A stretch of 64,000 nt of DNA from NCBI GenBank assembly GCA_019509785.1, contig JAEKLQ010000059.1, positions 1-64,000 on the forward strand. The letters run 5' to 3'. Both the position numbers and the translations under genes were made by a program. Under the pieces are notes generated by a model. The model was not told where the DNA came from and did no database searches. It was given only the letters and a program-made list of their open reading frames with translations. Below, piece after piece: positions 53,410 through 56,663 of the stretch. The DNA comes from Fibrobacterota bacterium (GTDB taxonomy: Bacteria; Fibrobacterota; Fibrobacteria; UBA11236). Every line of letters starts with the position of its first letter. Position 1 is the first letter of the stretch.

Positions 53410-55158
53410 ATGCATTCCCGGGCGTCCCTTCCGCTTTATCTCGCATGCGCCGCCGCCGCCGTCTGGATCGGCGCCTGCTTATGGTTCCCCCTGACCGATA
53501 CGGATATCTGGTGGCATCTGGCGGCGGCCAAATGGATGTGGGCCCACAAGGCTTTCTTGAGGAGCGATCCTTTCAGCCAATCCTCCTTAGGCGCGCCTTG
53601 GACGGATTTGCATTGGGGATTCCAGGTTCTCGCCTCCGCGCTTTGGAAGGCGGGCGGGGCCTTCGCTTTGATCGCCGGGAAATGCCTGGCGGTGATCGGG
53701 GCCGTCGCTTTCGTTCTGCGGCCCCATCTCGATCGCCGTACCTGGCCCTGGCTATTGCCCCTGGCCGCCGCGGGAGCCTATCTGGTCCGCTTCTACCTGG
53801 ACGTGCGTCCGTTGGCTATCACCCTCTTGGGTCTTGGAATCCAATACGCCGTGGTGATGGCCTATTTGCGCGGTCGTTGGCGGCGCCCTTACCTGGTCTT
53901 GATCCCGGTTCAGATCGCCATGGCCAATGTGCAGGGCCTTTACCCGTTGGGATTGATCCTGGTGGGATGCTTGTTGTCCGGCGAATTCCTGGCGCGCCGC
54001 AGCGCGCGAATCGCGCCGGCTTTTCCGGACGACTTCCGGCCGGGAGGAAGGGGCGCGGGCAGTGACGGAGCCGGGCTGGTTCCCTTGCGGCCTTTGGCAT
54101 GGGCATTGGTCCTCATGCTCGCGTCCGGATTCGCAACGCCCTATGGCTGGGACGGATTCCGTTTGCCTCTGGCCCTCTTCGCGCGCATCACGCCCGAGGC
54201 TTCCAACATCTTCTCCCGGGAGATCGCCGAGAACCTGCCCTTCCCGAGCTTGTTCCATACCGACCCCGCCCTGGCGACGGCTTGCCTGGCTTGGGCCGCC
54301 GTCGTGACTTGGACCTTCCTCGGGATCCGGCTTTCGGCGGGAACCTTGTTTCTCTGGGCGGCTTTCGGGGGCTTGGGTCTTATGGCGCAGCGGAACCTGC
54401 CCTTGGCCTTCCTGGCCGGGCTGATGGCGTCCGGACGTAACCTGGACGTTTCCTTAAGGGAAAAGGACTGCGATCCGGAGGCCGGCAAAGCCGGTAGGCG
54501 GCGGCGTTTGGCTTGGGCGGGCGCGGCGGCCCTGCTGGCCGTGGCCGTGGCCTTCGGGCCCCGCTTGCGGGCGGCCTGGGCCTATGAATTACCAGGTTCA
54601 TTGGTTACACCATTCCGCGTTCCTTCGGCGGCCGTGGACCTGCTGGCGGCGCATCCGCTTCCGGGACCCATCCTCAATGAGCTGCGCTTCGGCGGCTACC
54701 TCGAATACCGCCTCTACCCCGAGCCCGCCTTCGTGGACGGGCGCATGATCCTGCGCTCGGCGGATTTCTACCGGGACTTCCTCGCCGCCGCGGATGATCC
54801 GGAAAAGTTCCCGGAGTACCGCGCGCGTTACGGGTTCACCCATGCCTTGCTCCCCATCGCCGAGGACGCCCGTTTCCTGCCCCTGGCGGCCTTCCTGTTG
54901 CGCTCCGGTTGGGATCTGATCTATTGCGATGGGGCCTCGGCCCTGCTTGCCGATCCCGCGCTCCGGGCCGGCGGCATGGCCTTGGATTCGTTACTGCCGG
55001 ACCATCCGCTCGCCGTCGCATTGCGGACGCGGTTCGCCGCCAACCCGCGACTGCTGGGCTTGGCGACCGTGTACGCCGAAGCCTTTTTGCGCGCGGCCGG
55101 GAAGGAACGCGCGGCGTCCGATCTCGACGGCACCCTCGCATCCCCCCCAAGATTTTGA
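53410..55158 (+). CDS. Polytopic GT-C-like membrane protein
   Basis: A 582-residue protein with about eleven membrane helices in the first 410 residues, then a C-terminal soluble domain of about 165 residues. The first periplasmic loop holds FPLTDTDIWWHLAAAKWMWAHKAFLRSDPFS, a DxDxWWHL-type acidic motif shared with GT-C glycosyltransferase-like proteins of uncertain substrate. The C-terminal part contains GPILNELRFGGYLEYRLYPEPAFVDGR, resembling the conserved end of these proteins. It is divergent from the ArnA-like gene, so transfer of a sugar to lipid or protein in the same pathway is a reasonable inference. No ribosome site is apparent. Confidence 0.72.
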   Translation: MHSRASLPLYLACAAAAVWIGACLWFPLTDTDIWWHLAAAKWMWAHKAFLRSDPFSQSSLGAPWTDLHWGFQVLASALWKAGGAFALIAGKCLAVIGAVAFVLRPHLDRRTWPWLLPLAAAGAYLVRFYLDVRPLAITLLGLGIQYAVVMAYLRGRWRRPYLVLIPVQIAMANVQGLYPLGLILVGCLLSGEFLARRSARIAPAFPDDFRPGGRGAGSDGAGLVPLRPLAWALVLMLASGFATPYGWDGFRLPLALFARITPEASNIFSREIAENLPFPSLFHTDPALATACLAWAAVVTWTFLGIRLSAGTLFLWAAFGGLGLMAQRNLPLAFLAGLMASGRNLDVSLREKDCDPEAGKAGRRRRLAWAGAAALLAVAVAFGPRLRAAWAYELPGSLVTPFRVPSAAVDLLAAHPLPGPILNELRFGGYLEYRLYPEPAFVDGRMILRSADFYRDFLAAADDPEKFPEYRARYGFTHALLPIAEDARFLPLAAFLLRSGWDLIYCDGASALLADPALRAGGMALDSLLPDHPLAVALRTRFAANPRLLGLATVYAEAFLRAAGKERAASDLDGTLASPPRF

Positions 55159-55171
55159 GCCATGTCCTCCC

Positions 55172-55199
55172 TTGACAATCGAGCGCGAATGGATATACT
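55172..55199 (+). promoter_or_regulatory. Strong sigma70-type promoter
   Basis: TTGACA (55172-55177), 16 bases, TATACT (55194-55199). This is the best promoter in the window. It lies 13 bases after the preceding gene's stop and directs transcription into the attenuator-like leader. The start is predicted at 55205-55207. Confidence 0.8.
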
Positions 55200-55206
55200 T
55201 GGGAAC

Positions 55207-55317
55207 ATGTCGCACCCGTCCACCCGAGCCCAAATGACCATTTCTTGGTCCCTAGCCTGCGCCAAACGCTGGCAGGTTAAGCGTATTTGGGGCGCGGGGA
55301 GCGGGCACAGCGGCTGA
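55207..55317 (+). CDS. Possible Trp-containing leader peptide (36 codons)
   Basis: The ATG coincides with the predicted transcription start, so it would be translated leaderless. The peptide begins MSHPSTRAQMTISWSLACAK and contains three Trp (residues 14, 22, 28; codons at 55246, 55270, 55288), many for 36 residues. The TGA stop (55315-55317) lies just after the antiterminator strand 55298-55306, so a ribosome finishing translation would cover that strand and let the terminator form. Whether it is translated is unknown; it may be a chance frame over a structured RNA. Confidence 0.4.
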   Translation: MSHPSTRAQMTISWSLACAKRWQVKRIWGAGSGHSG

Positions 55318-55351
55318 TCGTCTAAACAAACGACCGGACCGTCCAGATAAG

Positions 55352-55377
55352 CCCGCTCCTCCCAGAGCGGGTTTTTT
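55352..55377 (+). terminator. Intrinsic terminator of the leader RNA
   Basis: CCCGCTC (55352-55358) pairs with GAGCGGG (55365-55371) around a 6-base loop and is followed directly by six T residues. It ends 33 bases before ATG 55410 of the transporter, so it must be read through for expression from the upstream promoter. Confidence 0.9.
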
Positions 55378-55409
55378 GCGTTTGGGCGATTTCCGGGAGA
55401 AAGGCAAAT

Positions 55410-56663
55410 ATGGCCTCGCGGCCCGATTTGAATAAGAACATCCGGAAGGGATTGGCGGTGGCGGTAACGGCATCGGCGCTCTTCTCGGCGAAATCCGTTT
55501 TCCACAAGCTGTGCTTCCGTTATGGAACGCCGCCCGTGGTGCTGCAAACCCTGCGGGCGTTGTTCTCCCTGCCGTTCTTCGTCTGGCCCTTCGTCGCCCG
55601 GCGCTTCGCCGCCAACTTCATCGCCCGGCGCGCCGCCGCACGGAGCCCCGCCGCCCCCTTCGAGGGCAAGCGGCCTGTCGCGGCCCCAACCTTCGCGGCC
55701 AAGGATGTCCTGATCCTGGCGGTGCTGGGCTTGACCGGCTTCTACGTGGCGAGCCTGTTGGATATGCTGGGGTTGCAATACGTATCGGCGGGCACGGAAA
55801 GGCTGATCCTGTACGTGTATCCCACTCTCGTGATCCTGTTCTCGGCCTTCATTTTCCGCAAAGCCATTCCGCGGGCCCTCTACGCGCCTTTGGCCTTGTC
55901 CTACCTGGGGATAGCCGTTTCCTTCGGGGGGGAAGCGAAAATGGGCGGGAGCCGGTCCTTTTATGGCGGATGCCTGGTTTTCGGGAGCGCGATCTGCTAT
56001 GCCCTTTTCATGGTCTTCCAAGGAAAGCTGGTGCACCGGTACGGCCCGCGTTTTTTCGCCGCCGGTTGCATGCTCTTCTCCTTCGCCGGCTACTTCGTCC
56101 ACTTCCTGATTTGCTATCCGCTCTCGGCCTTGGCGCAGCCGCGCCCGGTGTTGTGGATCGCCGCCTTCACGGCGGTGTTCTGCAACGTGGCCCCGACCTA
56201 TCTGACATCCTACGCCATAAAGCTGGCGGGATCGGGACCGACATCGGTGGCGGGCACGGTGGGACCCGTTTCGACCCTGGTGCTGTCGTCCTGGCTGCTG
56301 GGGGAGAAGGCCGGATGGCCGCAGATCGTGGGGCTGGCGCTGGTGGTAGCGGGGGCGTTACGCCTGTCCGCCGGGGGGAAAGGCGGGGGTCAAGGACCTT
56401 CCTCGCCGCCGGCGCCGGCCAAAGGCGCGTCCGGATCGGCGACAGGCGGCGGCAAGTTCGCGTCTTCCACGGCGCGGGGAACTCCGGCATCGGCGCCGGG
56501 TCGGCGGGCTTCGGCCATGGGGATTTCGGATTCGGCGCGGGCCGTCCCCGTTCCTCCGGAGCTTTCCGATCCGGCCGCGTCGGCAGCCGCCTTTCTGGCG
56601 TCGACGAAAGGCGGAGGCTCTATGGTTTGGGGCCGAGGCAACAGCCATTCGCGCAGCGCATAG
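55410..56663 (+). CDS. EamA-family (DMT superfamily) transporter
   Basis: A 417-residue inner-membrane protein. Two EamA repeats (about residues 15-160 and 190-330) supply ten helices: AVTASALFSAKSVFHKLCFRYGTPPVVLQTLRALFSLPFFVW, SAGTERLILYVYPTLVILFSAF and TSVAGTVGPVSTLVLSSWLLGEK are typical. EamA proteins move amino acids, sugars or other metabolites; the substrate is open. The last 85 residues are Gly/Ser/Ala/Pro-rich and are encoded opposite another gene, so the true C-terminus may be functionally dispensable. It lies behind an attenuator-like leader. GGGAGAAAGG precedes the ATG. Confidence 0.85.
   Translation: MASRPDLNKNIRKGLAVAVTASALFSAKSVFHKLCFRYGTPPVVLQTLRALFSLPFFVWPFVARRFAANFIARRAAARSPAAPFEGKRPVAAPTFAAKDVLILAVLGLTGFYVASLLDMLGLQYVSAGTERLILYVYPTLVILFSAFIFRKAIPRALYAPLALSYLGIAVSFGGEAKMGGSRSFYGGCLVFGSAICYALFMVFQGKLVHRYGPRFFAAGCMLFSFAGYFVHFLICYPLSALAQPRPVLWIAAFTAVFCNVAPTYLTSYAIKLAGSGPTSVAGTVGPVSTLVLSSWLLGEKAGWPQIVGLALVVAGALRLSAGGKGGGQGPSSPPAPAKGASGSATGGGKFASSTARGTPASAPGRRASAMGISDSARAVPVPPELSDPAASAAAFLASTKGGGSMVWGRGNSHSRSA

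Follow-up and report, generated by a model that had tools for sequence, protein, structure and literature searches.

A probable trp-type transcription attenuator with a leaderless leader ORF upstream of an EamA-family transporter gene in Fibrobacterota

Results

Elements between the upstream ORF and the EamA gene

The locus lies within a 64,000-nucleotide stretch of a Fibrobacterota contig, referred to here as the window, and its upstream neighbour is a 582-codon ORF that ends at 55158. The original prediction had described a promoter, a leader ORF with three TGG codons, an antiterminator strand, a six-T terminator and a gene encoding an EamA transporter, and all of these were recovered at the following positions.

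55172..55177, + strand: −35 hexamer (TTGACA), 11/12 match; its position relative to the leader ATG is constant in 13 orthologues, and it is weakest in L021
55194..55199, + strand: −10 hexamer (TATACT), separated from the −35 hexamer by a 16 nt spacer and ending 7 nt before the leader ATG
55207..55317, + strand: leader ORF encoding MSHPSTRAQMTISWSLACAKRWQVKRIWGAGSGHSG and a stop; 36 codons, TGA at 55315-55317, three TGG codons
55246..55248, + strand: Trp14 codon (TGG), not conserved
55270..55272, + strand: Trp22 codon (TGG), the conserved putative control codon, with the antiterminator core GAGCG 29 nt downstream
55288..55290, + strand: Trp28 codon (TGG), not conserved
55296..55306, + strand: antiterminator 5′ strand GGGGAGCGGGC, overlapping the final codons of the leader ORF and able to pair with 55351-55361, a pairing kept in 13/13 orthologues
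55351..55372, + strand: intrinsic terminator hairpin GCCCGCTC-CTCCCA-GAGCGGGT, kept in 13 orthologues, with a 5′ arm that doubles as the antiterminator 3′ strand
55372..55377, + strand: terminator U tract (six T), 32 nt before the EamA ATG at 55410
55410..56663, + strand: putatively regulated gene, an EamA-family (DMT superfamily) transporter of 417 aa (Pfam PF00892, E=3.5e-23)

The promoter, at 55172-55199, is the one promoter-like site in the 600 bases from 54900 to 55500, where shuffled sequences give 0.1 ± 0.3. Only 7 nt separate the −10 box from the leader ATG. Transcription should accordingly begin at the ATG or within 1–2 nt of it, giving a predicted leaderless transcript, and so short a gap could not hold a Shine-Dalgarno site ahead of the leader ATG in the window. 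The proposed exact complementarity between GGAGCGGGC (55298-55306) and GCCCGCTCC (55351-55359) was confirmed and, with G-U pairs allowed, the duplex extends to 11 contiguous pairs from 55296-55306. The duplex between the terminator 5′ arm and the strand at the leader stop is stronger in the window than in shuffled sequences (p=0.003). The window leader as a whole also folds more stably than shuffles (z=−3.0), with a branched, stable structure in its 5′ half.

Conservation of the arrangement across the phylum

The EamA subfamily was defined by 13 strong profile matches (E<1e-74) among 168 Fibrobacterota genomes, the next matches lying at E about 1e-28. These 13 orthologues span at least five genera, and all of them keep the whole arrangement of promoter, leaderless ORF, TGG codon, antiterminator strand and terminator. 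In every case 6–9 nt separate the −10 box from the leader ATG, and the ORF holds one or more in-frame TGG codons. A GGAGCGG-like strand lies near its stop, with a GCCCGCTCC-type terminator containing GCCCGCT 24–33 nt farther on. The leader ORF is 30–36 codons long, with one of 60.

The alternative pairing is conserved in 13/13 orthologues. In their alignment it is present in 83% of cells, compared with 34–55% when it is slid by 1–3 columns, two antiterminator pairs are changed on both sides, and L010 carries a compensating change in which ATGAGCGGGT is paired with GCCCGCTCAT. Against shuffles, the duplex over the 13 orthologues gives a Fisher p of 1e-7 without correction for relatedness. Since the core is nearly invariant, antiterminator covariation on its own is weak. 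In L010-L014, the other members of the genus, the sequence GATTCG...CGGATC directly after the leader stop can form an inner helix that lengthens the stem of the antiterminator; this helix comprises 9 pairs in L014 and is weaker in the window.

No such leader was found upstream of EamA homologues outside the subfamily (those of Fibrobacter and of two Burkholderiales-type MAGs, L040 and L041), and a DNA-level search of the window's genome revealed no near copy of it. TrpC is present in 12/13 leader-bearing genomes and in most others, so that genomes with and without the leader are not distinguished by Trp prototrophy.

The original prediction had also described a three-way junction (P1–P3) and had offered a ligand-binding riboswitch as the alternative to attenuation. 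The junction is a predicted fold; among orthologues the initial half of the leader is unconserved, and whole leaders vary in length from 30 to 60 codons. The stable branched fold in the 5′ half of the window leader speaks for a riboswitch with an incidental ORF, yet no conserved aptamer is apparent and the reading frame is kept although this 5′ half varies in sequence and length. No Rfam family reaches its threshold, and the same switch core lies behind leaders of quite different sequence (see below). We therefore regard a riboswitch as extremely improbable.

The control codon and selection on the leader peptide

In 10/13 leaders the Trp codon lies 28–31 nt before the core GAGCG, the exceptions being L012 (38 nt), L017 (34 nt) and L021 (17 nt). 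The leader stop falls 8–16 nt past the start of the core, L021 alone having 31 nt, and the conserved Trp and the stop are 11–16 codons apart. Given that Trp makes up about 1.7% of residues in the proteins of the window, so fixed a place would not be expected by chance, even when separate lineages alone are counted. A ribosome stall had been proposed at Trp14 or Trp22; alignment of the leaders favours Trp22, rather than Trp14, as the conserved control position in the window. Ten of the 13 leaders have a single Trp codon, with three in the window and two each in L015 and L016; none are adjacent, and tandem control codons are thus absent.

Comparison within the genus indicates selection at the amino-acid level near this codon. 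Around Trp22, pN is 0.30 and pS is 0.60, whereas upstream the values are 0.59 and 0.56, respectively (column permutation, p=0.006). Conserved residues alongside strongly diverged synonymous sites argue that the leader ORF is translated; they also leave room for a role of the nascent chain. Trp might accordingly act as a residue of a leaderless arrest peptide and not as a codon alone, the chain around it stalling the ribosome a few codons farther on once a small molecule (free Trp, an indole or a compound that targets the ribosome) is sensed, so that the antiterminator forms and an EamA exporter is induced through the core that elsewhere in the phylum would serve amino-acid starvation. The conserved residues (a genus motif K-x-W-x-V-K-x-I/V), the single Trp of most leaders and a spacing with room for stalling some three codons past Trp all fit such a mechanism. 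Precedents also exist: the EamA proteins characterised best are amino-acid exporters (PMC11005379), TnaC senses and responds to free Trp (PMC8429421), and the TopAI-YjhQ uORF is an antibiotic-sensing uORF (PMC12121999). The motif is confined to the genus, however, family g2 having W-[VA]-I-[VI], and the variable Trp-to-stop distance differs from TnaC arrest at the stop. Together with the codon content of the sister leaders described below, this makes an arrest peptide rather unlikely.

Folding of the leader with a ribosome in place

The 13 leaders were folded to the point at which the terminator 5′ arm has been made and the 3′ arm has not, with a ribosome footprint placed over either the Trp codon or the stop codon. 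Throughout the 13, the modelled antiterminator probability is 0.65–1.00 with the ribosome at Trp and 0–0.28 with the ribosome at the stop. A Trp-versus-stop difference as large as that observed was reached by shuffles in 98/780 cases overall (window, 4/60; L016, 36/60), and the footprint folding is for this reason support, rather than proof, for the switch. In a 1:2 pause/protector hairpin check, folds of the free RNA hold the antiterminator from forming in some leaders (L011, L016 and L021) and not in others.

In the finished RNA at equilibrium the terminator is favoured in 12/13 leaders even with the ribosome at Trp. This result could be read as the absence of any regulated switch, the terminator being a constitutive upstream one or that of a small RNA, the complementary strand a product of chance and the ORF spurious. 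Terminators containing GCCCGCTCC are indeed common here, and a covariance model of the core (see below) also matches ordinary terminators at the ends of genes, with scores up to about 42 bits. The equilibrium fold is not decisive, however, because attenuators act by timing, and timing would decide between antiterminator and terminator here as it does in known attenuators (PMC1183508). Against the absence of a switch also stand the retention of promoter, ORF, Trp and both strands in 13/13 orthologues, the amino-acid-level selection within the ORF, and the match between codon content and pathway before ilvB, citramalate synthase and trpE. We consider it very unlikely that the element is unregulated.

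The same switch core before other genes

A covariance model of the switch core (R1) was searched across the phylum, and a second model (R2), built on the R1 matches, was searched in 14 genomes. Weak matches, scoring no more than about 42 bits, frequently fell on ordinary terminators at gene ends (L115, L137-L143) and were counted only where leader architecture was present. The same core was found behind Ile-rich leaders (for example, MKSTLAIRIIITPPGSGL) before citramalate synthase at 8 loci (TIGR00977, 682 bits), behind Leu/Ile/Val-rich leaders (for example, MKATKSVLSTILSVVIIIIVLLNNQGGETGL) before acetolactate synthase ilvB at 9 loci (TIGR00118), and behind MNLVYKSEIRKIAFWWRSFINRAVLS, which has Trp-Trp codons, before trpE at 1 locus. 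Control codons in these sister leaders mostly lie 14–35 nt before the core, a range that spans the Trp position of the EamA leaders; in the trpE leader the Trp pair is 19–22 nt before the core, compared with 28–31 nt for EamA.

As the type of codon fits the pathway of the enzyme encoded downstream, the sister leaders calibrate the codon reading of the EamA leader, and this match is what codon sensing, rather than an arrest peptide, predicts. Because the same switch precedes other genes with fitting codons, the EamA leader very probably belongs to a group of ribosome-mediated attenuators that respond to amino acids across the phylum.

Several individual loci may be described further. The window's genome has three such leaders, before the EamA gene, citramalate synthase and an orphan gene. 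The citramalate synthase leader (G000:C33:20728-20801, − strand; loci L003 and L132) is the Ile-rich MALRAIARIRIISIDNERSGA with the same core; it is also found in seven relatives, and ATTCGAATT is kept in the leaders inspected. The third copy (G000:C22:81901-81982, − strand; locus L002, with L125, L131, L133, L134 and L135 of the same type) precedes the orphan gene, the product of which contains LRPGGLLCFH..DRDRAW and is methyltransferase-like by eye, and two of its relatives show no Pfam match; leaders of this type hold Trp-Arg and Cys/Arg/Met codons. The ilvB-type loci (L106, L107, L108, L109, L111, L112, L114, L116 and L118) come from other classes of the phylum. The trpE leader (L117:1501-1586, − strand, in G075) encodes AFWWRSF, apparently has a Shine-Dalgarno site and scores 34.3 bits against the Rfam Trp_leader threshold of 41, a partial resemblance. 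A Thr/Arg/Asn-rich leader, MNSLYLLIKPTRNTKRTRTVNGMRNWSGLL, with the same core lies before a glutamate synthase (gltB-like) gene at L110:1501-1582 (+ strand). No leader of this kind precedes the trpEGDC operon of the window's genome or of two relatives.

Discussion

Taken together, these results make it highly probable that the element is a ribosome-mediated (trp-type) transcription attenuator, as originally proposed. A short leader ORF lies upstream of the gene, and the predicted antiterminator and terminator are mutually exclusive in that they share one strand. In the footprint model, a ribosome at Trp would leave the antiterminator strand free, and one at the stop would cover it. What the sequences show directly is the set of elements, the fact that these are conserved, and the recurrence of the switch, with codons to match, before ilvB, citramalate synthase and trpE.

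The best overall explanation, which we consider likely, is an attenuator with a pause at Trp22 and an EamA gene turned on by scarce tRNA-Trp. RNA polymerase would initiate at the leader ATG or immediately beside it, and a 70S ribosome would load on the leaderless ORF and trail the polymerase. When charged tRNA-Trp is scarce, the ribosome would pause at Trp22, leaving 55296-55306 free. That strand would then pair with the 5′ arm of the terminator (55351-55361) ahead of synthesis of the 3′ arm, and the EamA gene would be transcribed. When Trp-tRNA is plentiful, the ribosome would reach the stop at 55315 and cover 55296-55306, allowing the terminator to form. The control codon would then place the transporter in tryptophan or aromatic metabolism, uptake of Trp or a precursor being perhaps the simplest role.

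We also judge it likely that Trp-tRNA shortage is the signal that switches the transporter on. Several observations count against this reading. The Trp codon of the EamA leaders lies farther from the core than the Trp pair of the trpE leader. Ten of 13 leaders have one Trp codon, and modelled attenuators use two or more control codons, with fewer codons lowering sensitivity (PMC1183508). The conserved residues around Trp would not be needed for pure codon counting. Induction by starvation would be odd if the transporter is an exporter, as are the best-characterised EamA proteins (PMC11005379). For an orphan subfamily of EamA transporters, the control codon points to Trp or aromatic metabolism as a physiological lead and poses the question of whether Trp-tRNA shortage induces a DMT-type transporter when most characterised relatives are amino-acid exporters. 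More generally, Fibrobacterota are indicated to use mostly leaderless, ribosome-mediated attenuators in which one recurring core serves several amino acids.

The arrangement resembles trpL of E. coli and Salmonella (RF00513) in that the Trp codons of a leader ORF are followed closely, around its stop, by an antiterminator strand, and this strand competes with an intrinsic terminator. The E. coli trpL terminator is likewise of the GCCCGC/GAGCGGGC type. Unlike trpL, the window leader precedes an EamA transporter gene rather than trp biosynthesis genes, the EamA leaders usually have one Trp codon, and the window ORF is leaderless, without a Shine-Dalgarno site and below Rfam detection. RF00513 gave no match in the window at the gathering threshold (41 bits), and a loose search listed none at E<=10 in 54000-56500 and none at E<=1 for six orthologues. 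Resemblances to the Rfam Thr, Leu and Trp leaders at loose E-values were sub-threshold, mostly at the terminator, and were set aside.

TnaC, of the tryptophanase operon, is likewise a short leader peptide with a single functionally key Trp. It arrests the ribosome at the stop codon and blocks Rho, whereas the window switch involves an intrinsic terminator and the variable Trp-to-stop spacing offers no fixed stop-codon arrest position.

In Actinobacteria, the attenuators described for trp, trpS, leuS and ilvB have predicted leader peptides, control codons and terminators before amino-acid genes (PMC1262725). As in Fibrobacterota, the antiterminator triples are conserved within the phylum; unlike the window, the leaders have double or triple UGG codons, and the word 'transporter' occurs 0 times in the main text of that paper (PMC1262725).

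The original prediction had held that the arrangement is not known from described systems, which is too strong: what is proposed is attenuation of the trp type, here combined with a leader ORF that is leaderless and with a transporter gene as target. Our literature searches on Fibrobacter attenuators or EamA/Trp leaders found no papers, and no description of ribosome-mediated attenuators of this kind in Fibrobacterota was found in the literature searched. A leaderless leader ORF with Trp attenuation has, however, already been described in the trpL of Sinorhizobium meliloti (peTrpL), which shares with the window a transcript that begins at the leader ATG, Trp codons and transcription attenuation (PMC7298713). 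It differs in regulating trpE(G), in encoding a 14-aa peptide and in belonging to another phylum (PMC7298713), and its class of trp attenuator has several consecutive Trp codons, unlike the window. As far as the literature searched extends, three features are new: a transporter is the target, one control codon alone is conserved together with the residues around it, and a single switch core is used repeatedly across the phylum.
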